In this document: positions 39,030-61,454 of the stretch, in pieces
Numbering within the stretch: the stretch's first letter is position 1
Layout of the letters: each line of letters starts with the position of its first letter
DNA from: Paracoccus sphaerophysae
Lineage (GTDB): Bacteria > Pseudomonadota > Alphaproteobacteria > Rhodobacterales > Rhodobacteraceae
Assembly (NCBI RefSeq): GCF_000763805.1
Contig: NZ_JRKS01000006.1
Span: 1 to 64,000 of the forward strand
DNA length: 64,000 nucleotides
Direction of reading: 5' to 3'
Program-made: the position numbers and the translations under genes
The notes under the pieces: model-generated
Told to the model about the DNA's origin: nothing
The model's input: only the letters and a program-made list of their open reading frames with translations
The model's database searches: none

Positions 39030-40022
39030 TTACTGGGCGGTGGCCGCCTCGATCGACTTGATGAGGTCGGCGCCGATGCGGTCGGCCATTTCCTCGCGCA
39101 CCGGAGTCAGCGCCTCGACCCAGGCGGTCTTTTCCTCGGGGGTCAGCTCGTGGAATTCGGTCTTGCCGGCATCCTTCATCGCCTGCAGCGCCTTGTCGTT
39201 TTCTTCCTTGGCGATGCCGTTGCCGTATTCGGTCGCCTCGGCCACCGCCTTGTCCAGACTGGCGCGCACGTCCTCGGGCAGGCCGTCCCAGAACTTCTTG
39301 TTCACGATCAGCGCATAGCCCAGATAGCCGTGGTTCGACAGGGTGGCGTGTTTCTGCACCTCGTGCATCTTCTGGGTGTACATGTTCGAGGGCGGGTTTT
39401 CGGTCCCGTCCACGACGCCGGTCTGCAGCGCCTGGTAGACTTCCGAGAAGGCCATGACCTGCGGCACCGCGCCCAGCGCGTTCATCTGCGCTTCCAGCAC
39501 CTTGGACGACTGGATGCGCATCTTGAGCCCGAGGAAGTCGTCGGGGGTGTGCAGCTTGGAGTTGGCCGACATGATCTTGAAGCCGTTGTCCCAGAAGGCC
39601 AGGCCCTTGATCCCCTTGTCTTCCAGCTTGGCCAGCATCCCCTTGCCGACCTCGCCGTCGGTCACCTTGCGCAGCTGGTCATAGCCGTCGAAGATGTAGG
39701 GCAGATCGAACGCCTCGAAATCGGAAATTCCGAGCGGGCCGAACTTGGCCAGAGACGGCGCCAGCATCTGGACCGCGCCCAACTGCAGCGCCTCGAGCTC
39801 TTCCTTGTCCTTGTAGAGCTGCGAGTTCGGATAGACTTCGACCTTGACCTTGCCCTCGGTGTATTTCTCGGCCAGCTCCTTGAACTTTTCGGCGGCCTTG
39901 CCCTTGGGCGTGTCCGGGGCCACGACATGGCTGAACTTGATGGTGACGTCCTGCGCAAGGGCAGGCACGGCCAGCGTGACGGCGACCAGCGCGGCAAGGC
40001 TGGTCCTGAGGATCGTGTTCAT
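39030..40022 (-). CDS. dctP: TRAP transporter periplasmic dicarboxylate-binding protein (DctP)
   Basis: The 330-aa protein has a signal peptide (MNTILRTSLAALVAVTLAVPALAQ, cleaved after ALA-Q) and the DctP family core. This includes IKFSHVVAPDTPKGKAAEKF, VKVEVYPNSQLYKDKEELEAL, and KMRIQSSKVLEAQMNALGAVPQVM with the arginine that binds the ligand carboxylate. It also has QTGVVDGTENPPSNMY. It matches the C4-dicarboxylate (succinate, malate, fumarate) branch. It is first of a complete dctP-Q-M unit. Confidence 0.95.
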   Translation of the reverse strand: MNTILRTSLAALVAVTLAVPALAQDVTIKFSHVVAPDTPKGKAAEKFKELAEKYTEGKVKVEVYPNSQLYKDKEELEALQLGAVQMLAPSLAKFGPLGISDFEAFDLPYIFDGYDQLRKVTDGEVGKGMLAKLEDKGIKGLAFWDNGFKIMSANSKLHTPDDFLGLKMRIQSSKVLEAQMNALGAVPQVMAFSEVYQALQTGVVDGTENPPSNMYTQKMHEVQKHATLSNHGYLGYALIVNKKFWDGLPEDVRASLDKAVAEATEYGNGIAKEENDKALQAMKDAGKTEFHELTPEEKTAWVEALTPVREEMADRIGADLIKSIEAATAQ

Positions 40023-40117
40023 GTTTCGGATTCTCCCCGGTTGGAACGAACCGCAGCATAGGCGGCGCGCACGGGTCTGAAAAGCCGCGCTGCGCGGCCT
40101 GCGACACCGGCGCGGGG

Positions 40118-41470
40118 TCAGACCAGGGCGGTGATCTTGCGACGCCGCCAGACCAGCAGGTAATAGGCGCCCTGCGCCAGCATCATCGCCGCGAACGAGA
40201 TGACATAGGCCCACCAGATGCCTTCCAGCCCGACAGTCCGCGACAGCAGGATCGCCAGCGGCAGCTCGACCAGCAGAACGCAGCCCATCGCGATCAGCAT
40301 CGGCGGGATCACCGTGCCCGAGGACCGCATGATCCCCGAAAAGATCGTGCCGGCCCCGAACATCAGCGCCGACCAGCTGACGATGTGCAGCAGGTGCTGA
40401 GCCAGCTCGGCGACCTGCGGATCGGCCAGGAACGCCTGCACCACGAGGCGCGAGAACAGGTAGATCAGCGCCACCAGCGCGCCGGTCAGCACCAGGTTCA
40501 TCATCTGCGCGGTGCGCAGCACGGCGTCCAGCCGGTCAGTCCGCCCGGCGCCGATCGCCTGGGCGCCATAGATCGAGGCGGCGATGGCGATCGAGAGGGC
40601 CGGAAACTGGGCATAGTTCTGCACCTGGCTGACCGCGCCATAGGCCGCCGTCGCCTCTGATCCGAAGCCGTTGATCAGTCCCACGATCACCAGCCCCGAG
40701 GCCGAGCCCACGACCAGCTGCGCCCCGGTCGGCAGGCCCAGCCGCAGCACCTGTTTCAGCAGCGCCCAGTCGGGCACCATCGCCCGCAGCAGCGCCGGGC
40801 CGGGCGCCAGCGGATGGTTGCGGCCGGCGAGCCACATGCCCAGCACGATCAGCCCGATGGTCTGGGCGATGCCCGTCGACCACGCGGCCGCGGACACGCC
40901 GAGGCCAAGCTGGGTGACCATCAGCAGCGTCAGGGCGGCGGCAAAGCCGGTGGCGACGGCCTGGATCACCAGCGGGCGGACCGAATCTCCGGTCCCGCGC
41001 AGCAGCGAGGCGGCGCAGATGAACAGGAACAGCACCGGCATGGTGACGAAGGCGGTGCGGGCATAGCTGACCGCGGGGCCCATCACGTCGGCAGGCGTGC
41101 CCATCAGCCGCAACAGCGCAGGCGCGGCGATGGCGCCGCCGATCCCGACCAGCAGCCCGATCCCCAGCGTGGCGCCCAGCGCCGTGCCGCCGATGCGGCG
41201 GACAAGATCGAGCTTTTGCGCGCCCCAGGCCTGCCCGACCAGCACGCTCGACCCGGCGGTGACGCCGATCACGAAGGCGATGAAGAAGAACGCGAGCGGC
41301 ATGAAGGTCGCCATCGCCGCCAGCGCGCCGGTGCCCAGCATCCGTCCGACAACGATGCTGTTGATCGTCATCCCCAGCGATTGCAGGATGTTCTGGCCGA
41401 TCAGCGGCAGCAGGAACATCAGGAAGCTGCGCCACAGCGGGCCGTCCTGGATCGAAGGGGGTCTGGCCAT
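40118..41470 (-). CDS. MATE family efflux transporter
   Basis: This 450-aa inner-membrane protein has 12 predicted segments in two similar halves, typical of MATE exporters that use a sodium or proton gradient to expel drugs and metabolites. Family-like stretches are LLPLIGQNILQSLGMTINSIVVG near the start and LRLGLPTGAQLVVGSASGLVI at the second half. Substrate cannot be deduced. It lies just downstream of the GDP-sugar operon on the same strand but 43 bases after its stop and is probably separate. Confidence 0.92.
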   Translation of the reverse strand: MARPPSIQDGPLWRSFLMFLLPLIGQNILQSLGMTINSIVVGRMLGTGALAAMATFMPLAFFFIAFVIGVTAGSSVLVGQAWGAQKLDLVRRIGGTALGATLGIGLLVGIGGAIAAPALLRLMGTPADVMGPAVSYARTAFVTMPVLFLFICAASLLRGTGDSVRPLVIQAVATGFAAALTLLMVTQLGLGVSAAAWSTGIAQTIGLIVLGMWLAGRNHPLAPGPALLRAMVPDWALLKQVLRLGLPTGAQLVVGSASGLVIVGLINGFGSEATAAYGAVSQVQNYAQFPALSIAIAASIYGAQAIGAGRTDRLDAVLRTAQMMNLVLTGALVALIYLFSRLVVQAFLADPQVAELAQHLLHIVSWSALMFGAGTIFSGIMRSSGTVIPPMLIAMGCVLLVELPLAILLSRTVGLEGIWWAYVISFAAMMLAQGAYYLLVWRRRKITALV

Positions 41471-41513
41471 GTCGGATCCGCGTCTGCACGCCCCGCCGGC
41501 GCCGCCCCTTGGC

Positions 41514-42473
41514 CTAAGTCGCCCCGCGACCGCGTGCAACCCGCGTTTCCGCCCCCTCCCGGCAGGCGGCCACGGCGGCGGCGATGGCGGCGCGGGTCTC
41601 GGCCTCGGTCGGCGGGGCATAGCCCAAAGCGCGGGCCCGGGCCGAGGACATCAGCTTGGCGCGCATCCCCTCGGGCCGGGTCAGGTCGTGGGTGAAGCGC
41701 CCGTGCCAGCCCGCGGCCTCGGCGACCATGCGGTAATAGTCGTTGACCGAATGATCGACCTCGGCGCCGACATTCAGCACCGGCGGCAGCCGGTCGAGGC
41801 CGGGCAGGGCGGTCAGCACGAAGCGGGCGAGGTGGTCGGCGTCCAGGAACTCGCGCCGCGCGGTGCCGCTGCCCCAGATCTCGACTTCGTCCCCGCCGGC
41901 CGCTTGCGCCGCCACGACCTTGGCGATGGCCGCGGCCAGCAGATGCGAGGCTGCCGAGCCGAAATGATCGCCGGTGCCGAACAGGTTCGGCGGGATCAGC
42001 GTGCGATAGGCCAGCCCGTGCTGGCGGGACAGGTAGTCGCACAGCCGCGCGCCGGTGATCTTGGCCAGCGCATAGCCCTCGTTGGTGGGCTCGAGCGGGG
42101 CGGCGAGGACATCCTCCTCGACCAGCGGCTGGCGGTGATCGCGCGGATACATGCAGGACGAGCCGAGAAAGACCAGCCGCGGCACGCCGGCGGCAGCCGC
42201 CCCCGCGATCACCGCGTCGTTCATCCGCAGGTTGTGAAGCAGGAAGCCCGCCGGGTCGTCGATATTGGCCTGGATGCCGCCGACCCGCGCCGCGGCATGG
42301 ATCACCGCGTCGACCGGGTTGGCCGCATACCAGCCCGCCACGGCGGCGCGGTCGGTCAGATCCAGATCGGCGCGCGACGGGGCGAGCAGAGCGACGCCCG
42401 GCGCGACGTCCGGAGCAAGCCGGCGGATCGCGCCGCCCAGCATCCCCGATCCTCCGGTCAGCAGGACCCGCAT
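41514..42473 (-). CDS. NAD-dependent epimerase/reductase, GDP-colitose or GDP-fucose synthase type
   Basis: The 319-aa short-chain dehydrogenase shows LLTGGSGMLGGAI for NADP binding, the catalytic SSCMYP cysteine/serine region, and Y-x3-K as GYALAKITGA. It also has the PPNLFGTGDHFGSAASHLL loop. This is the GDP-L-fucose synthase (Fcl/WcaG) family, which epimerises C3 and C5 and reduces C4 of a GDP-4-keto-6-deoxy sugar. GDP-colitose synthase (ColC) is a close homologue that does the equivalent job on the 3-deoxy compound. Because a ColD-like gene is in the same operon, ColC is the better guess. It shares one base with the manC stop (TGATG). Confidence 0.85.
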   Translation of the reverse strand: MRVLLTGGSGMLGGAIRRLAPDVAPGVALLAPSRADLDLTDRAAVAGWYAANPVDAVIHAAARVGGIQANIDDPAGFLLHNLRMNDAVIAGAAAAGVPRLVFLGSSCMYPRDHRQPLVEEDVLAAPLEPTNEGYALAKITGARLCDYLSRQHGLAYRTLIPPNLFGTGDHFGSAASHLLAAAIAKVVAAQAAGGDEVEIWGSGTARREFLDADHLARFVLTALPGLDRLPPVLNVGAEVDHSVNDYYRMVAEAAGWHGRFTHDLTRPEGMRAKLMSSARARALGYAPPTEAETRAAIAAAVAACREGAETRVARGRGAT

Positions 42474-43909
42474 CAGGACCGCGCGTAGACGTCGTCGTAA
42501 CGGATGATGTCGTCCTCGCCCAGATAGACGCCGGTCTGGACCTCGATCAGCACCATCGGCACCTTGCCGGGGTTTTCCATCCGGTGGACGGCGCCCAGCG
42601 GCACGTAGATCGACTGGTTCTCGGTCACCAGCGTCACCTTGTCGTCGACGGTCACTCGCGCCGTGCCACTGACCACGATCCAGTGTTCGGCCCGGTGGAC
42701 ATGGCTTTGCAGCGACAGCGCGGCGCCGGGATGGACGACGATGCGCTTGACCTGGAACCGCTCGCCCAGGACCAGCGTCTCGAACCAGCCCCAGGGGCGG
42801 TGGTCGCGCAGGAAGCTTTCCGCCTGCCGGATGCCGCGGGACTTCAGCGCGCTGACCGCCTGGCGGACGTCCTGGGCGCGGGTCATGTCGGCGACCAGCA
42901 CGGCATCGCCGGTGGCCACGACCATCGTGTCCTTCAGCCCGATGCCCACCACCTGCATCCCCTCGTCGTCCGAGCGCAGCAGCACGTTGTCGCAGTCGAT
43001 CGCGGTGGACCGGAGATCGGCCACCACCCCGCGCCAGGCGGGCTTGTCGACCTGCGCCTCGCGCCAGATCGCGTCCCAGCCGCCCAGGTCCGACCAGTGA
43101 TCGGCAAAGCGCACGACCGACAGGTTGTCGGCCTTTTCCATCACCGCATAGTCGATCGACAGGTCGGGCAGCGCCTGCCACGGCTCGGCCGCAAGCCGGG
43201 TGAAGCCCAGATCGCGGGTGGCGCCGTCCAGCGCCGCCTCGACCGGGGGGATGAAGTCGGGGGCGTGGGTGCGGAACGCCTGAATTATGGTGCGGGCGGT
43301 GAACAGGAAGATGCCGGCGTTCCACAGGAACCGGCCGTCGCGCAGCATCGCCTCGGCGGTCGCGGCGTCGGGCTTTTCGACGAAGCGGCGCAGCGGCGCG
43401 GGGCCCGCACTGTCGTCCGACAGTTCGAGCCAGCCATAGCCGGTCTCGGGGCGGGTCGGTTGGATGCCGAAGGTGACGATCCGCCCGGCCTGCGCCAGCG
43501 GCACACCCTGATCGACGGCGCGGCCGAACGCCTCGTCATCCGGCACCACGTGGTCCGACGGCGCGACGAGGATCAGCGTGTCGGGATCGCTGCGCGCCAG
43601 ATGCAGCGCCGCGGCCAGCACCGCGGGGGCGGTGTTGCGGGCGGCAGGCTCGATCAGGACGCCGGCCGGCGCGACGCCGATATCGGCCAGCTGCTCGGTC
43701 ACGATAAAGCGGAAATCGGCCCCGGTCAGGATCAGCGGCGCGGCATAGCGCGCCCCCGACAGCCGCCTGGCCGAGGCCTGGAACAGCGATTCGTGGCCGA
43801 CCAGCGGCGCGAACTGCTTGGGAAACGACTTGCGCGACACCGGCCACAGCCGCGTCCCCGACCCGCCGGAGAGCAGCACCGGAACCACGGGAGAGAGGGG
43901 GGCGGTCAT
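42473..43909 (-). CDS. manC: Mannose-1-phosphate guanylyltransferase / mannose-6-phosphate isomerase
   Basis: The bifunctional 478-aa enzyme makes GDP-mannose and its precursor. The N-terminal nucleotidyltransferase carries [23 protein letters not shown] and GYGWLEL...RFVEKP. The C-terminal cupin (from about 350) carries [20 protein letters not shown] and [20 protein letters not shown], with the isomerase metal histidines. It supplies GDP-mannose to the adjacent gmd. It overlaps gmd by four bases (ATGA) and the epimerase/reductase by one. Confidence 0.95.
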
Positions 43910-44976
43910 TCCAGCACCCCGTAGGCGCGCCGCGCGAGGCGTTCGGTTTCCAGCAGCCGCAGGTCGGCGGCGACCATCTCGGAGACCAGCTCGGCAAAGC
44001 CGATCCGGGGCGACCAGCCCAGCTGCGCCCTCGCCTTGCTGGCGTCGCCGCGCAGCTCGGGCACCTCGGAGGGGCGGAAATAGACCGGGTCAATCTCGAT
44101 CAGGCACCGGCCGGTCGCCGCGTCGACGGCGGTTTCCTCGACGCCGGAGCCGCGCCAGTCCAGGGTGATGCCGATCTGCGCGAAGGCGTGGTTGCAGAAA
44201 TCGCGGACGCTGTGGGATCGGCCGGTCGCCAGCACGTAGTCGTCGGGCCGGTCCTGCTGCAGCATCAGCCACATCCCCTCGACATAATCCCGCGCGTGGC
44301 CCCAGTCGCGCAGCGCGTCGAGATTGCCCAGATACAGCCGGTCCTGCAGCCCCAGCGCGATGGCAGCGACGGCGCGGGTGATCTTGCGGGTCACGAAGGT
44401 TTCGCCGCGGATCGGGCTTTCGTGGTTGAACAGGATGCCGTTGGCCGCGAACATCCCGTAGGCCTCGCGGTAGTTCACGGTGATCCAGTAGGCGTAAAGC
44501 TTGGCCGCCGCATAGGGCGAGCGCGGGTGGAACGGCGTCGTTTCCGACTGCGGCGCGGGGCTGGTGCCGAACAGCTCGGAGCTTGAGGCCTGGTAGAAGC
44601 GGGTGGTCTCGGCCAGGCCCAGCAGGCGCATCGCCTCGAGCAGGCGCAGCGCGCCCAGGGCGTCGGCATTGGCGGTGTATTCCGGCATCTCGAAGCTGAC
44701 CCGGACGTGGCTTTGCGCGGCGAGATTGTAGATCTCGTCCGGGCGCACCTCGGCCAGGGTGCGGATCAGCGCGGTGGCGTCGGTGGTGTCACCGTGATGC
44801 AGGTGGAAATCGCTGCCCGCGTGTTCATCGATCCGCAGGTGGTCGATGCGGCCGGTGTTGAAGCTGGACGAGCGGCGCTTGATGCCGTGGACGGCATAGC
44901 CGCGGGCCAGCAGGAACTCGGCCAGATAGGCGCCGTCCTGGCCGGTGATGCCGGTGATGAGGGCAGTCTTGGTCAT
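43906..44976 (-). CDS. gmd: GDP-mannose 4,6-dehydratase
   Basis: Gmd converts GDP-D-mannose to GDP-4-keto-6-deoxy-D-mannose, the branch point to fucose, rhamnose, perosamine and colitose. The 356-aa protein has [18 protein letters not shown], the NADP segment [24 protein letters not shown], and Y-x3-K in [12 protein letters not shown], all normal. It lies six bases after the dehydratase-like PLP enzyme stop and is coupled to manC by a four-base overlap. Confidence 0.96.
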
Positions 44977-44982
44977 CTGTGC

Positions 44983-46155
44983 TCAGCGATTGCGCGTCAC
45001 GGTTTCGACCACCTCTGCCAGACGGGCGATCTGGGGCGCCAGCGGATAGTGGTGATTGCCGACGAAAAGCCCGTCGGTATCGACCCGCTCGGCCACCGGG
45101 ACGGGGCCGGCGACGCTGTGGTCCAGCCTGGCAATCACCGGGTTGGCGAGGAAGTTGCCGGTCACGATCGGGCGCGATTCGATCCCGGCCGCACTCAACG
45201 CCGCGACCAGTTCCGCGCGGCGCCCGGCCAGCCGGCGCTTGAGCAGCATCGAGAAGCCGAACCACGACGAGGCGCCGTTTTCCTGCTGGATATCCAGGTC
45301 GGGATGGTCGGCGAAGGCCTTGACGAACAGCGCCGCGTTGTCGCGTCGCGCGGCGACGAAGCCGTCCAGCTTGGCCAGTTGGGTCTGCCCCAGCGCGCCC
45401 TCCATCTCGATCGGGCGCAGGTTGTAGCCGGGCAGCACGAAGCGGAACTGGCGCAGGAACGGGTCGGGGTCGCGAGGCAGGTGGGTGTCCTCGGGCAGGT
45501 CGCGGGTCCAGCCATGCGCGCGCAGGGACAGCATGGTGTCATAAAGCCGGCGGTCGTCGGTGACGACCATCCCGCCTTCCATCGTCGAGATATGGTGCGA
45601 GAAAAAGCTCGAGAACGTGCCGCACAGGCCGAAAGTGCCCGCCTGCCGCCCCGCCAGCGTGGCGCCCATCGATTCGCAGTTGTCCTCGACCAGGATCAGG
45701 CCGCGGTCGTCGCAGAGCGTGCGCAGCCGGTCCAGCGTTGCGGGGTTGCCCAGCAGGTTCACGACCAGGATCGCGCGGGTGCGCGGCGTGATCGCCGCCT
45801 CGGCCAGGGCCGGATCGAGGTTCAGCGTCCCCGCCTCGATATCGACGAAGCGCAGGCGCAACCCGAGCTGGCTGACCGGGAAATAGGTGGTGGACCAGCC
45901 GACGGTCGGCACGATCACCTCGTCGCCAGGTTTCAGCCCCAGGTCCGGGTGCCACAGGCAGGCCGCCAGCGCCAGCAGGTTGGCGGTCGATCCCGACGAG
46001 GTCATCACCGCGTGGCGGCTGCCGAAATGGGCGGCAAAGGCGTCCTCGTAGCGGCGGACCTCGGGGCCCATGGTGAAGCGGCCGCTGGCGATGACGCGAT
46101 GGAGCGCGTCGATTTCATCCTGGTCCCAGGTCGATGAGGCGAGCGGATAGAACAT
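44983..46155 (-). CDS. PLP-dependent GDP-4-keto-6-deoxymannose 3-dehydratase (ColD-like)
   Basis: This 390-aa enzyme belongs to the DegT/DnrJ/EryC1 fold. The segment that holds the PLP lysine in aminotransferases reads [16 protein letters not shown], with H187-H188. E. coli ColD uses His188 there to remove the 3-hydroxyl instead of transferring an amino group. D158 in VEDNCESMG is the pyridine-binding aspartate. No four-cysteine iron-sulfur set like that of RfbH/E1 is seen, which also favours ColD. It starts the operon ColD-Gmd-ManC-epimerase/reductase, all that is needed from fructose-6-P-derived mannose phosphates to GDP-colitose apart from phosphomannomutase. The product sugar is inferred. 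Confidence 0.87.
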
Positions 46156-46302
46156 CAGCCGGCACGCATTCGCAGGATAAGTCCGGACGCCGGCGAGACG
46201 CGGGCCGACGCGCCGCTTTGGACGGCGAAATCACGCACGGGTGCGGGGTTTCGATGGGAAGAATCGTGCGGGCCCGTCAGCAGGCCCATCCAGCCGGGAA
46301 TG

Positions 46303-46860
46303 TCAGCCGCCCCAGTTGCGCAGCGGGCCGCAATCCATGTGCACGAAGTTCGAGCGCGAGTACTTGCCGACGCCACCCGCGCGACAGGACATGGCGGCCT
46401 TGTACATCTGCCCGACCGAGCGCGATTTCAGCCGCAGGTCGGCGGCCTTGCCCGACATGTGCAGCGAGTTGCGCGCCACCGCGCCGCTGCGCGATCGCAG
46501 CATGGCGTTGGTCTTGGGCGAGCGGTAGCCCGACAGCATCATGTAGGGTTCATTGGTCTGCAGCAGGCGGTGGCTGGCAGCGGCGATGTCGATGGTGCGC
46601 GGGTCGATGCCGATCACCTGTCCGGTGCGCCAGTCGCGCATGAAGATGTTGATCTCGTTCAGGGCGTCCCGGACGTATTTGCCTTCGACCCAGTAGACGG
46701 TGTCGATGCTTTCGCCGGTCCGGCCGGAATACATCCGGACCCGTCGATAGTCGCCAGCGCCACGGATGATCCCGAAGGCGTTCGCCATCACCGGGGCAGC
46801 CGCCACGGTCGTGGCAGCGAAGACGCCCAGAAGGCCGCGGCGCGAGAATTCGAAGGTCAT
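46303..46860 (-). CDS. DUF882/YcbK-type exported M15-like peptidase
   Basis: The 185-aa protein has a twin-arginine-like signal (MTFEFSRRGLLGVFAATTVAAAPVMA). The mature part keeps the M15/YcbK zinc site: H and D in SLHMSGKAADLRL and a final H in FVHMDCGPLRNW. Relatives are murein endopeptidases (MepK-like) cutting peptide cross-links in the periplasm. It is divergent from the L,D-transpeptidase gene, a pairing that fits, since MepK-type enzymes open bonds that L,D-transpeptidases make. Confidence 0.87.
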   Translation of the reverse strand: MTFEFSRRGLLGVFAATTVAAAPVMANAFGIIRGAGDYRRVRMYSGRTGESIDTVYWVEGKYVRDALNEINIFMRDWRTGQVIGIDPRTIDIAAASHRLLQTNEPYMMLSGYRSPKTNAMLRSRSGAVARNSLHMSGKAADLRLKSRSVGQMYKAAMSCRAGGVGKYSRSNFVHMDCGPLRNWGG

Positions 46861-55672: not shown

Positions 55673-55710
55673 GAGGGGCGCGCGGTCCTGATCGGAAAGG
55701 TTGCGGCCCC

Positions 55711-55992
55711 CTAGCGCAGACCGGCCCCGCGCGCCACCCCCGGCGTGAGCGGACGGCACGCGACAAGGGTCACGACCATGAACAGCCCGGCGAGGATCAC
55801 CGAGCCGAACCCCAGCCCCTGCCCGGCCGGGCCGAGATCGAACCCAGTCCGAGGGCGGCGCTGAAGGCGGTGAAGACAGCCGACAGCCCGGCCGCGACCA
55901 CGGCACCGGCGAGGATGCTGCCCCAGTCGACATAGCCGCGGTCCGTCTGCTGGACGGGCGCGGCGCTGTCGCGGATGCGCGCTTCCGATCAT
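55711..55992 (-). pseudogene. Remnant of a PhnA-like/YrzE-type membrane protein
   Basis: Two minus-strand frames each hold part of one membrane protein. The first reads RGYVDWGSILAGAVVAAGLS then FTAFSAALGLGSIS. This VDWGxILAGAVVA start is typical of PhnA-like membrane proteins of alphaproteobacteria. After a break near 55840 a second frame reads GQGLGFGSVILAGLFMVVTLVA and ends at 55711. The piece is too short (about 90 codons) and lacks most of the family length, so it looks like a decayed gene with a deletion. Confidence 0.5.
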
Positions 55993-55996
55993 TCCA

Positions 55997-56071
55997 TCAG
56001 CGCAGGCCGAGCATCGACAGGATGAACAGGACGACGACGACCAGGCCGACGATGTAGATGATCGAATTCAT
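55997..56071 (-). CDS. 24-residue single-helix membrane peptide
   Basis: The ORF reads MNSIIYIVGLVVVVLFILSM and ends LGLR. It has a strong ribosome site (AAAGGAAC, eight bases before the ATG on the minus strand). Nearly the whole chain is one membrane helix with a C-terminal arginine. The sequence resembles tiny conserved hypothetical proteins of proteobacteria; the role is unknown. Confidence 0.6.
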   Translation of the reverse strand: MNSIIYIVGLVVVVLFILSMLGLR

Positions 56072-56323
56072 GACGGGTTCCTTTGTGCTGGATGGGACAG
56101 GCGCGCCCCGGTTGCTTTCGGTAAACAGCAGGGAACGGGTCCAGTTCCTTGCGTGGCGGGCTTTCGCGGTTTTGCCAGGCTGCACGGCAGGCCAGCCGAC
56201 CCGCGGACCAGAGTGATCTTGACCGGCGGGGCAGGGCTCGGGCATCACGGGGGCAACCGTTGCGCCCGCAACGATCCTGCCGCGCAACCGCCCCAGCGCG
56301 CGATCCCACGAGGACCGACGACC

Positions 56324-56815
56324 ATGCAGATCGAGACCTTCTTTCCCTATCGGCTCGCCGTCACCGCCGAGGCGTTCTCGCGCCAGCTGGTCGCCGTCTA
56401 TGGCCGCGAATACGGGCTGTCGCGCGAGGAATGGCGGCTTTTGTTCCTGCTCGAGGATGCCGGGTCGCTGAACTCGTTGGAACTGTCGAACCGCACCTCG
56501 CTGGACAAGGTGCAGGTCAGCCGGGCCGCCGCGCGGCTGGAGGGCAAGGGGCTGATCACCCGCGAGATCCTCGACTCCGACCGCCGCCTGCGCGATTTCA
56601 CCATCACCCCGGCCGGCGAGGCGCTGTTCCTGCGTGCGTTCCGCGATGTGGAACGGCGCGCGGCGGAGATCCTCGGCGCGATGGACCCCGACGACCTCGC
56701 GGCGTTCGAACGGGGGGTTGCGGCGCTGGACCAGGCGATGGCGCGCGTGACCCAGCCCGGTAGCGGCCGGGGCGCGGCCTTCCCGCGGCCGCGGGGGGCG
56801 GCAGGGGCCGGCTAG
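56324..56815 (+). CDS. MarR family transcriptional regulator
   Basis: The 163-aa protein has the MarR winged helix: YGREYGLSREEWRLLFLLEDAGSLNSLELSNRTSLDKVQVSRAAARLEGKGLITRE, then the wing SDRRLRDFTITPAG. A helical dimer end follows. The start follows ACGAGGACC. It directly precedes the homogentisate region, where three GTTGCA-NN-TGCAAC palindromes lie. MarR proteins bind such short inverted repeats, and aromatic acids are common ligands, so it is the likely regulator of the hmgA/fahA genes. Confidence 0.9.
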   Translation: MQIETFFPYRLAVTAEAFSRQLVAVYGREYGLSREEWRLLFLLEDAGSLNSLELSNRTSLDKVQVSRAAARLEGKGLITREILDSDRRLRDFTITPAGEALFLRAFRDVERRAAEILGAMDPDDLAAFERGVAALDQAMARVTQPGSGRGAAFPRPRGAAGAG

Positions 56816-56837
56816 GGCGCCGCCGATTTTATTTCAT

Positions 56838-56867
56838 TTGACCCGAATCATCCGGCTGCGGCATATG
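56838..56867 (+). promoter_or_regulatory. Likely sigma-70 promoter before the hmgA remnant
   Basis: TTGACC (56838-56843) is a good -35 box. CATATG (56862-56867) at 18-base spacing is a weaker -10. The region is clearly less GC-rich than its surroundings. A regulator palindrome begins on the next base. Confidence 0.5.
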
Positions 56868-56881
56868 GTTGCAACTGCAAC
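56868..56881. promoter_or_regulatory. Palindrome A, putative MarR operator
   Basis: GTTGCA-AC-TGCAAC is a perfect inverted repeat with a two-base centre, placed directly downstream of the putative -10 box. A bound regulator would block transcription start. The same pattern recurs at 57009 and 57029. Confidence 0.6.
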
Positions 56882-56904
56882 GACTGCCGGGGAAGGAGGA
56901 GCCG

Positions 56905-56985
56905 ATGACCCGTCTGCAGGACGACTATGCCGATTGCTGGGCGTCGCTGGAAAAGACCTTCGATGGCACGCCGGGCGAAAAGTGA
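56905..56985 (+). pseudogene. hmgA: Remnant of homogentisate 1,2-dioxygenase (last ~22 codons behind its start)
   Basis: An excellent ribosome site (AAGGAGG) and ATG lead into a 26-residue frame, MTRLQDDYADCWASLEKTFD and the end GTPGEK. The segment LQDDYADCWASLEKTFDG matches, to my recollection, the C-terminal end of HmgA proteins, which finish with LQ-D-Y-x-CW-x-GL-x-x-F-D. So the promoter, ribosome site, start and last codons of hmgA seem to remain while the roughly 430-codon body is gone. An independent small peptide gene cannot be excluded. Confidence 0.5.
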
Positions 56986-57008
56986 CCCGCGCTGCTGCGG
57001 CCGGGATG

Positions 57009-57043
57009 GTTGCGGCTGCAACTTTATCGTTGCAATTGTAACG
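57009..57043. promoter_or_regulatory. Palindromes B and C upstream of fahA, putative MarR operators
   Basis: GTTGCG-GC-TGCAAC (57009-57022) and GTTGCA-AT-TGTAAC (57029-57042) each differ from palindrome A by one base in the arms. Their centres are 20 bases apart, two helical turns, so two dimers would bind the same DNA face. They lie 45-79 bases before the fahA start. Confidence 0.6.
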
Positions 57044-57087
57044 ATACTCGTCCATTTTCTCGCTACCAGGAACCACGCAAGGCTGCC

Positions 57088-57933
57088 ATGCAGCACAGCT
57101 GGGTCGAATCCGCCAACGATCCCGAGGGCGATTTCCCTCTGGCGAACCTGCCCTATGGGGTGTTCTCGGTGGCCGGCGAGCCGCCCCGCTGCGGCGTCGC
57201 CATCGGCGACCGGATCGTCGACCTGGCGGCGGCCGAGCCGGCCGGGCTGATCGACGGGGAGGGCACCTTTGCCCGCCCCGCGCTGAACGACTTCATCGCG
57301 CTGGGCCGCGAGACCTGGGCCGCGACCCGCGCCCGGCTGACCGAACTGCTGGCCGCGGAGGGCGGCAACCCCGACCTGCCTACCGTGGCGATGGCCGACG
57401 CCACGCTGCACCTTCCGATCCGGGTGACCGAATACACCGACTTCTATGCCTCGAAGAACCACGCCTTCAACGTAGGCGTGCTGTTCCGCGGGCCGGAAAA
57501 CGCGCTGCCGGCGCAGTGGACCCACATGCCGATCGGCTATAACGGCCGCGCTTCGCCGGTGGTCGTCTCAGGCACCGACCTGCACCGCCCGATGGGCCAG
57601 CTGAAGGGCGAGGACGGCCCGATCTGGGCGCCGTGCAGGCGGCTGGACCTGGAACTCGAGATGGGCGCCGTCGTCGGCGCCGACTCGGCGCTGGGCGACC
57701 AGGTCAGCGTGGAACAGGCCGAGGCGATGATGTTCGGTTATGTGCTGCTGAACGACTGGTCGGCGCGCGACGTGCAGGCCTGGGAATACCAGCCGCTGGG
57801 CCCGTTCCAGTCCAAGGCGCTGGGCACCACCATCAGCCCCTGGATCGTGACAACTGCCGCGCTGGAGCCGTTCCGCTGCGAAGCTACCGGGACGACCACT
57901 GGTCGCATGGCGGCGAGGGGCCGGCGGCGCTGA
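57088..57933 (+). pseudogene. fahA: Fumarylacetoacetase, C-terminally truncated
   Basis: FahA splits fumarylacetoacetate, the last step of tyrosine breakdown. The N-terminal 265 residues fit: ANLPYGVFSVAGEPPRCGVAIG, the metal/catalytic segment EYTDFYASKNHAFNVG, the metal glutamates in LDLELEMGAVVG and LNDWSARDVQAWEYQPLGPF. After ISPWIVTTAALEPFRCEA the family sequence ends, replaced by TGTTTGRMAARGRRR and a stop. About 140 C-terminal residues of the usual 410-430 are missing, including substrate-binding parts. The junction runs straight into TRAP permease sequence, so a deletion joined two genes. Confidence 0.75.
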
Positions 57934-58427
57934 ACCAGCCGGCGGATGTCCCCGGCCACATCCCCGGCCGGACCCAGCACCGGGATTCGGCGGCCTATCG
58001 CCTGCTCGCCCTGGCCGCCGGCGGGCTGATCCTGGCGCTGATCGCCGTCACCTGCATCGACGTCGTGGGCCGTTATCTGATGAACCGCCCCTTCGGCGGC
58101 GCCTATGAGCTGACCCAGATCCTGCTGGCAGCGCTGGTCTTTGCGGCGCTGCCGCTGACCTCGGCCGATGGCGGCCATGTCGAGGTCGACCTCGCCCTGC
58201 ACCTGTTCCCGCTGCCCGTGCAGCGGGCGATGGCGCGGATCGCGGGCCTCGTGTCCGCGGTGGCGCTGGCCTATTTCGCCTGGCGGCTGGTCCGCATCGG
58301 CCTGACCCAGGCCGCCGAACACACCCCCAGCGCCTCGCTGGCCCTGCCGATGGCGCCGCTGGCGTTCCTCGCCGCGGCAAGCTGCGCCGGCTCGGCCGTG
58401 GTGATGGCTGCAAGGAGACCCGAATGA
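57930..58427 (+). CDS. TRAP transporter small permease, start codon not found
   Basis: The frame encodes a DctQ-like protein with four membrane segments: LLALAAGGLILALIAVTCIDVVGRYLMNRP, then GAYELTQILLAALVFAALPLT, DGGHVEVDL and two more helices to VVMAARRPE. No ATG, GTG or TTG is in a fitting place upstream. The frame stays open into the end of fahA; the coordinate given begins at a CTG. The true N-terminus was probably lost in the fahA deletion. It overlaps the large permease by four bases (ATGA). No binding-protein gene is present. Confidence 0.6.
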   Translation: MNQPADVPGHIPGRTQHRDSAAYRLLALAAGGLILALIAVTCIDVVGRYLMNRPFGGAYELTQILLAALVFAALPLTSADGGHVEVDLALHLFPLPVQRAMARIAGLVSAVALAYFAWRLVRIGLTQAAEHTPSASLALPMAPLAFLAAASCAGSAVVMAARRPE

Positions 58428-59733
58428 CGACCTCGCTGATCGCTCTGGCCGTCCTGCTGGCGATGGTCTTCGTCCGGGTGCCCATCGCCTTTGGCATGGC
58501 CATCGTCGGCGGCATCGGCTTTGGCCTGCTGCGCGGGTGGGAGCCCGCCGGCGCCATGGTCGGCAACGCCGTCTTTGAAACCGGGCTGAACTATTCGCTG
58601 TCGGTGGTGCCGCTGTTCATCTTCATGGGCAACATCCTCGCCGGCTCGGGCATCGCCCAGGGGCTGTTTGCCGCCGCCGACCGCATCTTTGGCCGGATGC
58701 GCGGGGGGCTCGCGATGGCGACGGTGCTGTCCTGCGGCGGCTTCTCGGCCGTCTGCGGGTCGTCGCTGGCGACCGCCGCCACGATGACCAAGGTCGCCAT
58801 GCCCTCGATGCGCCGCTTCGGCTATGCCGACAGCCTGTCCACCGGGGCCATCGCCGCCGGCGGCACGCTGGGCATCCTGATCCCGCCCTCGGTGGTGATG
58901 ATCGTCTATGGGCTGCTCGTCGAAGGCGAGATCGGCAAGCTGTTCCTGGCCGGCATCATCCCCGGCATTGTCGGCATCCTCGGCTATCTGCTGGCGGTGA
59001 TGGTTGCGGTGCGGATGAACCCGTCGCTGGCCCCCGCGGTCGGCGAGCCGCTGCCGCTGTCGCGCAGCGACCTGGTCAGCGTGGCCGCGGTGCTGGCGCT
59101 GTTCGCCTTCATCATGATCGGCATCTATAGCGGGCTGTTCACCCCGATCGAGGCCGCCGGGATGGGCGCCGCGACAGCGATGATGATCGCGCTGGTGACC
59201 GGGGACTCACCCGCCGCGCCCTGTGGACGGCGCTGGTCGACAGCGCCACCGCCTCGGCGATGATCTTCGCGATCATCATCGGGGCCGAGATCTTCGGCAA
59301 CTTCGTGACCTTTGCGGGCCTGCCGGACGCGCTGTCGGACCTGGTCGATCAACTGGGCCTGTCGCCCTGGATGGTGATGGTCGTCATCGTGCTGATCTAC
59401 ATGGTGCTGGGCTGCTTCCTGGAAAGCCTGTCGATGATCCTGCTGACCGTGCCGGTGTTCTTTCCGCTGGTGTCGGGGATGGATTTCGGGCTGGAAATCC
59501 TGTCCAGCCCCGAGGCGGTGATGATCTGGTTCGGCATCATCGTGGTGGTGGTGACGGAAATCAGCCTCATCACCCCGCCGATCGGCATGAACGTGTTCGT
59601 GCTGCGCTCGGTGATGCCGGACGTGCCGCTGCGGACGATCTTTCGCGGCGTCTCCTGGTTCTGGGCCTCGGACATCGTGCGGCTGGCGCTGATCGTGGCC
59701 GTGCCGTGGCTGTCGCTGGCGCTGTATTCGTGA
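58424..59733 (+). pseudogene. TRAP transporter large permease with frameshift
   Basis: From ATG 58424 (behind AAGGAGACC) the frame encodes DctM sequence, including GLNYSLSVVPLFIFMGNIL, AAGGTLGILIPPSVVMIVYG and FTPIEAAGMGAATAMM, as far as LVTGDSP. It then runs out of frame to a stop at 59263. The other frame carries LTRRALWTALVDSATASAMIF and the rest, ITPPIGMNVFVLRSV, ending at 59733. One missing base near 59204-59208 (GGGGACTCACC) explains it. Rejoined, the protein would have about 436 residues, a normal length. Confidence 0.8.
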
Positions 59734-59775: not shown

Positions 59776-60867
59776 TCAGGACGCCCTGAGAACGCCGCGG
59801 TCGATCTGGTCCTGCTCGATGCTTTCGAAGAGCGCGCGGAAATTGCCCTCGCCAAAGCCGTCATCGCCCTTGCGCTGGATGAATTCGAAGAAGATCGGCC
59901 CGATCACCGTCTTCGAGATGATCTGCAGCAGGATGCGCGTCTCGCCGCCATCCACCGCGCCCTCGCCGTCGATCAGGATGCCGTGGCGGGCCATCGCCTC
60001 CAGCGGCTCGTCGTGGCCCACGACGCGGTGTCGCGACATCTCGTAATAGCTCATCAGCGGCTTGGGCATGAATTTCAGCCCCCGCGCGGCAATCGCGTCG
60101 GTGGCCGAATAGATGTCGTCGCAGCCGACGGCGATATGCTGGATGCCCTCGCAGTTATAGCGCTTGAGGTATTCGACGATCTGCCCGGTCTCGCCCCGGT
60201 CCTCGTTGATCGGGATGCGGATGCGGCCGCAGGGCGAGGTCAGGGCGCGGCTGAACAGGCCGGAATACTTGCCCTCGATGTCGAAGAACCGGATCTGGCG
60301 GAAGTTGAACAGCCGGCCGTAGAAGTCGAACCAGGTGTCCATGTTCCCCTTGAACACGTTGTGGGTCAGGTGGTCCAGGTAGTGGAAGCCCACCCCGGCC
60401 GGCTTGGGCGGGGCGACGAAGTCGAAATCGGCATAGGGGTTGGCGCCCGGGCCATACTGGTCGGTGAAATAGATCAGCAAGCCGCCGATGCCGACGATGG
60501 CGGGCCAGTCGACCGTCTTGGCACCCTCGAACGGGGTCGCGCCGTTCCTGACCGCGTGGTCAAAGGCGTGCTGGGCGTCCACCACGCGCCAGGCCATCGC
60601 CGGGGCGCAGGGGCCGTGTTCCTCGACGAAATCCCGCGCGTGGCTGCCCGGCTCGTGGGTCAGCACATAGGTGATGTCGCCCTGCTGCCACAACTCGATG
60701 GCGCGGGTCTTGTGGCGGGCGGTCAGCGCAAAGCCCATGCGCTGGAACAGTTCCCGGGCGGCGTCGGGGTCGGGGTGGGCAAACTCGACGAACTCGAAGC
60801 CGTCGGTGCCGGCGGGGTTCTCGGCGGTGATCCGGGCGCGGGGGGCGTCGTGAGGGAAGGATCCCAT
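59776..60867 (-). CDS. hppD: 4-Hydroxyphenylpyruvate dioxygenase
   Basis: Hpd converts 4-hydroxyphenylpyruvate to homogentisate, the second step of tyrosine catabolism. The 363-aa protein is intact, with iron ligands H166 (YLDHLTHNVF), H244 (GIQHIAVG) and E328 (IFFEFIQRKGDDGFGEGNF), and the C-terminal helix that gates the site. It is the only undamaged enzyme of the pathway here. With hmgA and fahA lost, homogentisate made by it could accumulate and oxidise to brown pyomelanin unless copies lie elsewhere. It is divergent from the Lrp gene. Confidence 0.96.
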   Translation of the reverse strand: MGSFPHDAPRARITAENPAGTDGFEFVEFAHPDPDAARELFQRMGFALTARHKTRAIELWQQGDITYVLTHEPGSHARDFVEEHGPCAPAMAWRVVDAQHAFDHAVRNGATPFEGAKTVDWPAIVGIGGLLIYFTDQYGPGANPYADFDFVAPPKPAGVGFHYLDHLTHNVFKGNMDTWFDFYGRLFNFRQIRFFDIEGKYSGLFSRALTSPCGRIRIPINEDRGETGQIVEYLKRYNCEGIQHIAVGCDDIYSATDAIAARGLKFMPKPLMSYYEMSRHRVVGHDEPLEAMARHGILIDGEGAVDGGETRILLQIISKTVIGPIFFEFIQRKGDDGFGEGNFRALFESIEQDQIDRGVLRAS

Positions 60868-60998
60868 GGGCGGAAGGTTCCTGCTGGCGTGTGCTGCGAC
60901 CAAGTGTCGCGTAGGTTGCCAGCGAGATGGGCGTAAAGTTGGCGGTCTTTGCGACTCACTATGCGTGATCCGCGCGCAGTTTGCGCCTAACATGCGGC

Positions 60999-61454
60999 AT
61001 GGACGCAACCGATCTCAAGCTGCTGGCCGCGCTGCAACGCCGCGCCGACATGACCGCGCAGGAGCTGGGCGAGCATCTGAACCTGTCCCCCAGCCAGGCC
61101 GCGCGCCGCCGCGCCCGGCTCGAGGCGCAGGGCGTCATCGCGGGCTATCGCGCGCGGCTGGACCCGGCGCGGCTGGGGCTGGACGTGCAGGCCTTCGTCG
61201 AGGTCCAGATGACCGCCCACAACGCCGAAAATACCGCCAGTTTCCTGCGGCTGGTCGGCACCCTGCCGCAGGTCGTGGCCTGCTGGACCCTGACCGGAGA
61301 CGCCGATTATCTGCTGCGGGTCTGGTGCGACGATCTGCTGGCGCTGAACGCGCTGATCCAGAACCGCCTGCTGCCGCATCCGGCGGTGGCGCGGGTGCAA
61401 AGCCAGATCGTCATGGACCAGCCCAAGGCCGATGCCGGCCTGCCGCTGGGCTGA
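60999..61454 (+). CDS. Lrp/AsnC family transcriptional regulator
   Basis: The 151-aa protein has the Lrp helix-turn-helix (DLKLLAALQRRADMTAQELGEHLNLSPSQAARRRARLEAQGVI) and a C-terminal RAM/ACT-like domain (VQAFVEVQMTAHN to VRVQSQIVM). The divergent 131-base gap to hppD suggests it controls hppD and itself, with an aromatic amino acid as likely effector; this is inferred from position. The start is the ATG at 60999. Confidence 0.92.
   Translation: MDATDLKLLAALQRRADMTAQELGEHLNLSPSQAARRRARLEAQGVIAGYRARLDPARLGLDVQAFVEVQMTAHNAENTASFLRLVGTLPQVVACWTLTGDADYLLRVWCDDLLALNALIQNRLLPHPAVARVQSQIVMDQPKADAGLPLG

Follow-up and report, generated by a model that had tools for sequence, protein, structure and literature searches.

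In our study, the homogentisate genes of the Paracoccus genome analysed here were found to be broken by deletions, and it is very probable that they decayed by recent natural loss, with tyrosine breakdown left ending at homogentisate. The window, which means the whole stretch of 64,000 bases that was analysed, takes in positions 1-64000 on contig 6 of a draft assembly (3.36 Mb in 137 contigs, 99.96% complete and 0.05% contaminated). One deletion would have joined codon 3 of hmgA to its last 23 codons in frame with a loss of about 1.28 kb, and another would have removed the 3' third of fahA together with maiA and dctP. The dctM gene would have been frameshifted, whereas hppD, the MarR regulator and the sequence upstream of hmgA would have remained. 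Tyrosine breakdown would then halt at homogentisate, which, if hppD is expressed, may leak out and oxidise to brown pyomelanin. The remnants and the joins are present in the assembly, from which HmgA and any MaiA over the cut-off are absent; the natural origin of these losses is what we infer from them. The locus is of interest because it records recent decay of a pathway in Paracoccus to the exact base, and it leads to the simple prediction of a brown strain excreting homogentisate.

The frame at 56905-56985 (forward strand) reads MTRLQDDYADCWASLEKTFDGTPGEK and its TGA stop lies at 56983-56985. It comprises 26 codons, in which hmgA codons 1-3 (56905-56913; M T R) are fused in frame with the final 23 codons and the stop (56914-56985), so that the deletion join falls at 56913/56914. 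Codons 1-3, ATGACCCGT, are identical to those of the intact hmgA in one of the relatives' loci (L027). The preliminary description had reported a ribosome site and ATG leading into a peptide that resembles the C-terminus of homogentisate 1,2-dioxygenase, and these elements were indeed located, with AAGGAGG at 56893-56899 on the forward strand and the ATG at 56905. Moreover, tblastn with the intact HmgA of G109 (453 residues) placed its residues 431-453 at 56914-56982 with 78% identity (E 2.4e-7). A search of the remnant peptide against the fetched loci showed at least 19 residues aligned to the C-terminal end in 98 of the 101 distinct HmgA frames; of the other three, one is a fragment and two are homologous but extend a few residues further at the C-terminus. 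The best match was the HmgA of G058, with 21 of 23 residues identical (91%) and 70.2 bits. At the DNA level, the stretch from about 56914 to 56990 resembles hmgA 3' ends at 75-84%, with at least 16 Paracoccus genomes among the matches listed, and the hmgA 3' end of G066 matches it at 83% (E 7.8e-15). The neighbours are conserved on both sides, with marR on the 5' side and fahA on the 3' side as in G109, where the same gene order (marR-hmgA-fahA-maiA, L147) is found with all the genes complete. These comparisons support the reading of 56905-56985 as the HmgA C-terminus behind a native start, with the body of the gene deleted.

The Pfam profile HgmA_C gave only 11.6 bits on the remnant, under its cut-off of 21 (E 0.25), which is weak alone, and the match covers profile positions 137-153 of 153. 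This value below the cut-off would suit a chance short frame unrelated to HmgA, or a leader or small peptide with a function of its own, but such an origin has a negligible probability, as 2000 shuffles of the peptide gave a maximum of 28.2 bits against 70.2 for the real one, the register is exactly C-terminal and the position between marR and fahA is that seen in G109. Of the window's 276 short frames (20-60 residues), the frame that includes the peptide scored 71.9 bits and the runner-up 23.5. A chance frame was ruled out by the shuffles together with this short-frame control.

By gene lengths in four relatives, the loss in hmgA runs from codon 4 to about codon 430, i.e. 1275-1290 bases. What is left does not reach the curated cut-off of HgmA_C, HgmA_N or TIGR01015, and the catalytic core is missing, as the gene of about 453 codons lacks codons 4-430, within which the iron ligands presumably fall. 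Profile searches of the whole genome (137 contigs) with HgmA_C, HgmA_N and TIGR01015 gave no match. Since the assembly retains contigs down to 487 bases, a 1.28 kb hmgA body that had been left unplaced would be expected among them, and the earlier claim that the body of the gene is gone holds both at the locus and for the rest of the assembly. The transfer of hmgA to another place is likewise unsupported by these three profiles, the search for maiA and that for a 5.5 kb stretch of G058 described below.

Allelic-exchange deletions typically leave the first and last codons of a gene. At the hmgA join the reading frame is kept cleanly and the PstI sequence CTGCAG follows directly on the 3' side, which would fit an engineered in-frame deletion by allelic exchange. 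However, one in three random deletions would be in frame, and the fahA-dctQ join, a third deletion and the dctM frameshift look undesigned. Further, 26 of the 101 distinct hmgA genes natively have CTGCAG as the codon pair at this position; on this ground the site was rejected as an engineering scar, and an engineered origin is considered highly improbable.

The damage is greater than the preliminary description had stated: besides hmgA, the losses and breaks extend to fahA, maiA, dctP and dctM, and there is a third deletion 1.2 kb upstream. The 5' part of fahA (fumarylacetoacetase) is found at 57088-57882 on the forward strand and comprises codons 1 to about 264 (FAH 3-263 of 398, 82%), after which the frame runs through about 17 codons of other sequence to a stop at 57933. 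TIGR01266 matched this part over positions 1-277 of 420 with 331.5-333.3 bits against a cut-off of 375.3, so that it falls short of a full-length fumarylacetoacetase. Of the 11 named hits of this fahA part with at least 75% identity, 7 belong to Paracoccus. Comparison with relatives placed the second deletion join at 57883-57890, where the 3' end of fahA, maiA and dctP are missing. It is followed on the forward strand by dctQ (TRAP small permease; 57891-58427), recognised by family and by relatives, whose start region is lost at the join, and by dctM (TRAP large permease; 58424-59733), in which residues 1-260 and 261-434 lie in two frames with a frameshift near 59203. As dctM is frameshifted and dctP is missing, the TRAP transporter of the window is probably dead.

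The size of the second deletion depends on the relative chosen, and the gene orders of relatives provide candidate ancestral layouts. P. methylarcula (L067) has the order fahA-maiA-dctP-dctQ-dctM, as in the window but with all the genes complete, and hence a loss of about 2.0-2.1 kb is obtained. The longer layout of G058 (L145), in which the genes are also complete, gives 5.5 kb, as between the two join points it holds the end of fahA, a metallo-beta-lactamase-fold gene, an FAD monooxygenase, a DUF2783 gene, a VOC gene, maiA and dctP. The names DctP and MaiA in relatives were assigned by family search, and the tblastn comparison of the relatives' loci left out matches outside the window with E above 1e-8 that span more than 100 residues. 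In the whole genome no maiA was found over the cut-off, the best of 7 matches scoring 63.8 bits against 171, and a search for the missing 5.5 kb of G058 returned only 10 short matches, the longest of 128 bases. In G058 itself the metallo-beta-lactamase-fold, FAD monooxygenase, DUF2783 and VOC genes stand between fahA and maiA at positions 7298-13560 of L145 (contig C12), on a different contig from its hmgA, and this cluster is possibly a second aromatic pathway sharing the fahA and maiA enzymes.

The surviving parts of the cluster are 75-86% identical in DNA to the intact Paracoccus clusters. Of about 105 columns that are conserved across its 91 relatives, the fahA remnant departs at one (rank 13 of 92), from which it appears that fahA was under selection until recently and that the loss is recent. 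As regards the order of events, fumarylacetoacetate is toxic and builds up when fumarylacetoacetase is lost, so the loss of fahA with a working hmgA would have built up this compound, and hmgA was therefore probably lost first.

The third deletion join lies at 55753-55759 (55752/55760), adjoining typA, and about 0.86-0.90 kb of the sequence present in G058 and G025 is missing here. The bases between the flanks number 7 in the window against 904, and 31 against 887, in the relatives; in G058 (contig C15) the flanks are 66811-66886 and 67791-68111, and an open frame of 396 residues spans the missing stretch. The region 55677-56079 of the window thereby joins the typA-side end to a membrane-protein-like stretch. 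The comparison of scars covered 36.97-56.08 kb, as window positions 1-36.97 kb had no match in the fetched stretches of the relatives, and it took in matching pieces of at least about 60 bases with E of 1e-10 or lower. In these 19 kb comparable with both G058 and G025, a stretch of more than 100 bases is missing against both only at 55.75 kb, and hence the scars are not scattered along the window; the idea of a window full of scars was given up on this count. Smaller losses against both relatives, of about 74 and about 40 bases, lie near 38.3 and 47.1 kb respectively, and where the other differences exceed 100 bases it is the window that has the additional sequence. Such surplus amounts to about 2.1-2.25 kb over G058 and G025 at 43889-46303, about 0.9 kb over G058 at 41534-42480 and about 2.3 kb over G025 at 40004-42473.

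The clustering of the scars bears on another explanation, in which the joins were produced by the closing of gaps or by a patch of poor coverage in an organism with an intact operon. The genome is a draft in 137 contigs, the fahA remnant shows little point decay, and 3.5 kb holds three joins and a frameshift, as a poorly assembled patch could; it is mainly because the joins are recent and clustered that an assembly error is kept in consideration. Against it, the missing segments were found in no contig, even though very short contigs are present, and the joins contain no N. The flanking typA and hppD are both intact, and the join points in relatives have at most 5-6 bases in common, with no shared repeat long enough to mislead an assembler. 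An assembly artefact is thus rather improbable, and the natural loss of the genes is the reading followed below.

The intactness of hppD (4-hydroxyphenylpyruvate dioxygenase; 59776-60867, reverse strand), which had been assumed in the preliminary description, was confirmed at the level of sequence. Its frame is intact, it scores 354.7-354.9 bits with TIGR01263 over a cut-off of 277, and it keeps the motifs LTHNV, QHIA and FFEF, which we take to contain the iron-binding His, His and Glu residues. The activity of this HppD is not certain, because it has the lowest score among the listed full-length HppDs of the genus (the others range over 372-402 bits) and has 11 changes at 185 columns conserved in 11 others, where three others have 10, 7 and 7, in a set of only 12 sequences. 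An intact Lrp/AsnC-type regulator is divergent from hppD at 60981-61454 on the forward strand, and a gene of this type (42-49% identical) also stands beside hppD in six of the relatives' loci (L156, L175, L182, L185, L186 and L187). A phenylalanine hydroxylase was looked for and none was found, so that tyrosine, not phenylalanine, would have to feed the route.

With hmgA inactivated and hppD intact, the gene content is that of a pyomelanin producer by hmgA loss. We know of no other exit for homogentisate once HmgA is absent, and it is established knowledge of the pathway that an active HppD without HmgA yields homogentisate; brown pyomelanin and excretion of homogentisate are therefore a fair prediction for this organism.

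Among 125 Paracoccus genomes, 82 carry both hppD and hmgA, 34 carry neither, 6 carry hmgA only and 3 carry hppD only, so that the two genes are kept or lost together in 116 of the 125 (Fisher p 5e-21, uncorrected for kinship). Because the two genes are nearly always kept or lost together, the few species with hppD only are natural test cases for roles of homogentisate outside catabolism. These are the window genome, G048 and G100, the last being 86% complete. G048, a genome in one contig, has hppD without hmgA like the window and an Lrp-type neighbour, but unlike in the window the family and remnant searches that were run found no match to hmgA or fahA there, on account of which its loss looks older or more complete. 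Its hppD and divergent Lrp gene lie at positions 9171-10846 of L175 (G048:C1:2809000-2828000). It may be speculated, with a low though not trivial probability, that certain Paracoccus lineages have shortened the pathway so as to end at homogentisate, with loss of hmgA and the later steps and with hppD kept by selection, the window genome and G048 being independent cases. If this is true, secreted homogentisate or pyomelanin would be useful to the cell, e.g. in redox or iron chemistry.

In G082 (L184, contig C33; 7019-8801), marR and an intact fahA are separated by about 100 bases that hold no hmgA, and in that genome no hmgA was found anywhere and hppD had no match. G121 was not used as a second example of decay, as fragments of its hmgA, fahA and hppD are scattered over the chromosome; in this single contig (L177, L178, L179 and L192-L194) the fragments are possibly a scaffolding or assembly fault.

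The mechanism and the class of phenotype are already well known in other bacteria, and the window is well supported as a new example of them. In P. aeruginosa hmgA is likewise lost by deletion, and large chromosomal deletions covering it are reported to give brown pyomelanin (PMC5549691). Those deletions span about 400 kb and arose in lines passaged with drugs, and clinical isolates carry large deletions that overlap them, whereas the one described here removed about 1.28 kb, left scars of both gene ends and is accompanied by the loss of fahA-maiA. In Vibrio anguillarum 531Ad, a highly pigmented strain, a 410-bp duplication disrupts hmgA (PMC6787238); this too is a natural inactivation in an isolate, caused there by duplication and frameshift and in the window by deletion. 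Homogentisate made by HppD is reported to become pyomelanin in Aeromonas media (PMC4368426) and in Ralstonia (PMC4981395). The portions consulted of PMC3858670, PMC5343134 and PMC11637871 do not report hmgA loss in Paracoccus; the genus is named once in the first of these, in a reference title, and appears in the last in connection with carotenoids.

The region upstream of hmgA is retained together with a neighbouring regulator gene. An intact MarR-family gene lies at 56324-56815 on the forward strand (MarR_2, 6.4e-12); its product is 74% identical to the regulator adjoining the intact hmgA in G109, and such a regulator adjoins hmgA in some relatives, namely G109, G025 and G058. An NCBIfam search with the window gene gave no named match over the cut-off. 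A MarR-family regulator, HmgS, has been predicted for hmgAB in Alteromonadales and Pseudoalteromonadales (PMC5343134). A promoter scan of 56780-57120 gave no sigma-70-like promoter. The forward strand of the window carries two palindromes of the TTGCA..TGCAA type, found by pattern search, which may act as operators: TTGCAACTGCAA at 56869-56880, upstream of the hmgA start, and TTGCAATTGTAA at 57030-57041, upstream of fahA. The pattern, which was drawn up after inspection of the window, occurs in 27 of 91 hmgA upstream regions of 85 bases, some of them set from guessed start codons, and the other 64 are without it; the corresponding figure for 5000 random 85-base pieces of the window is 0.28%. 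One terminator-like site is found at 57008-57023, within a palindromic stretch.
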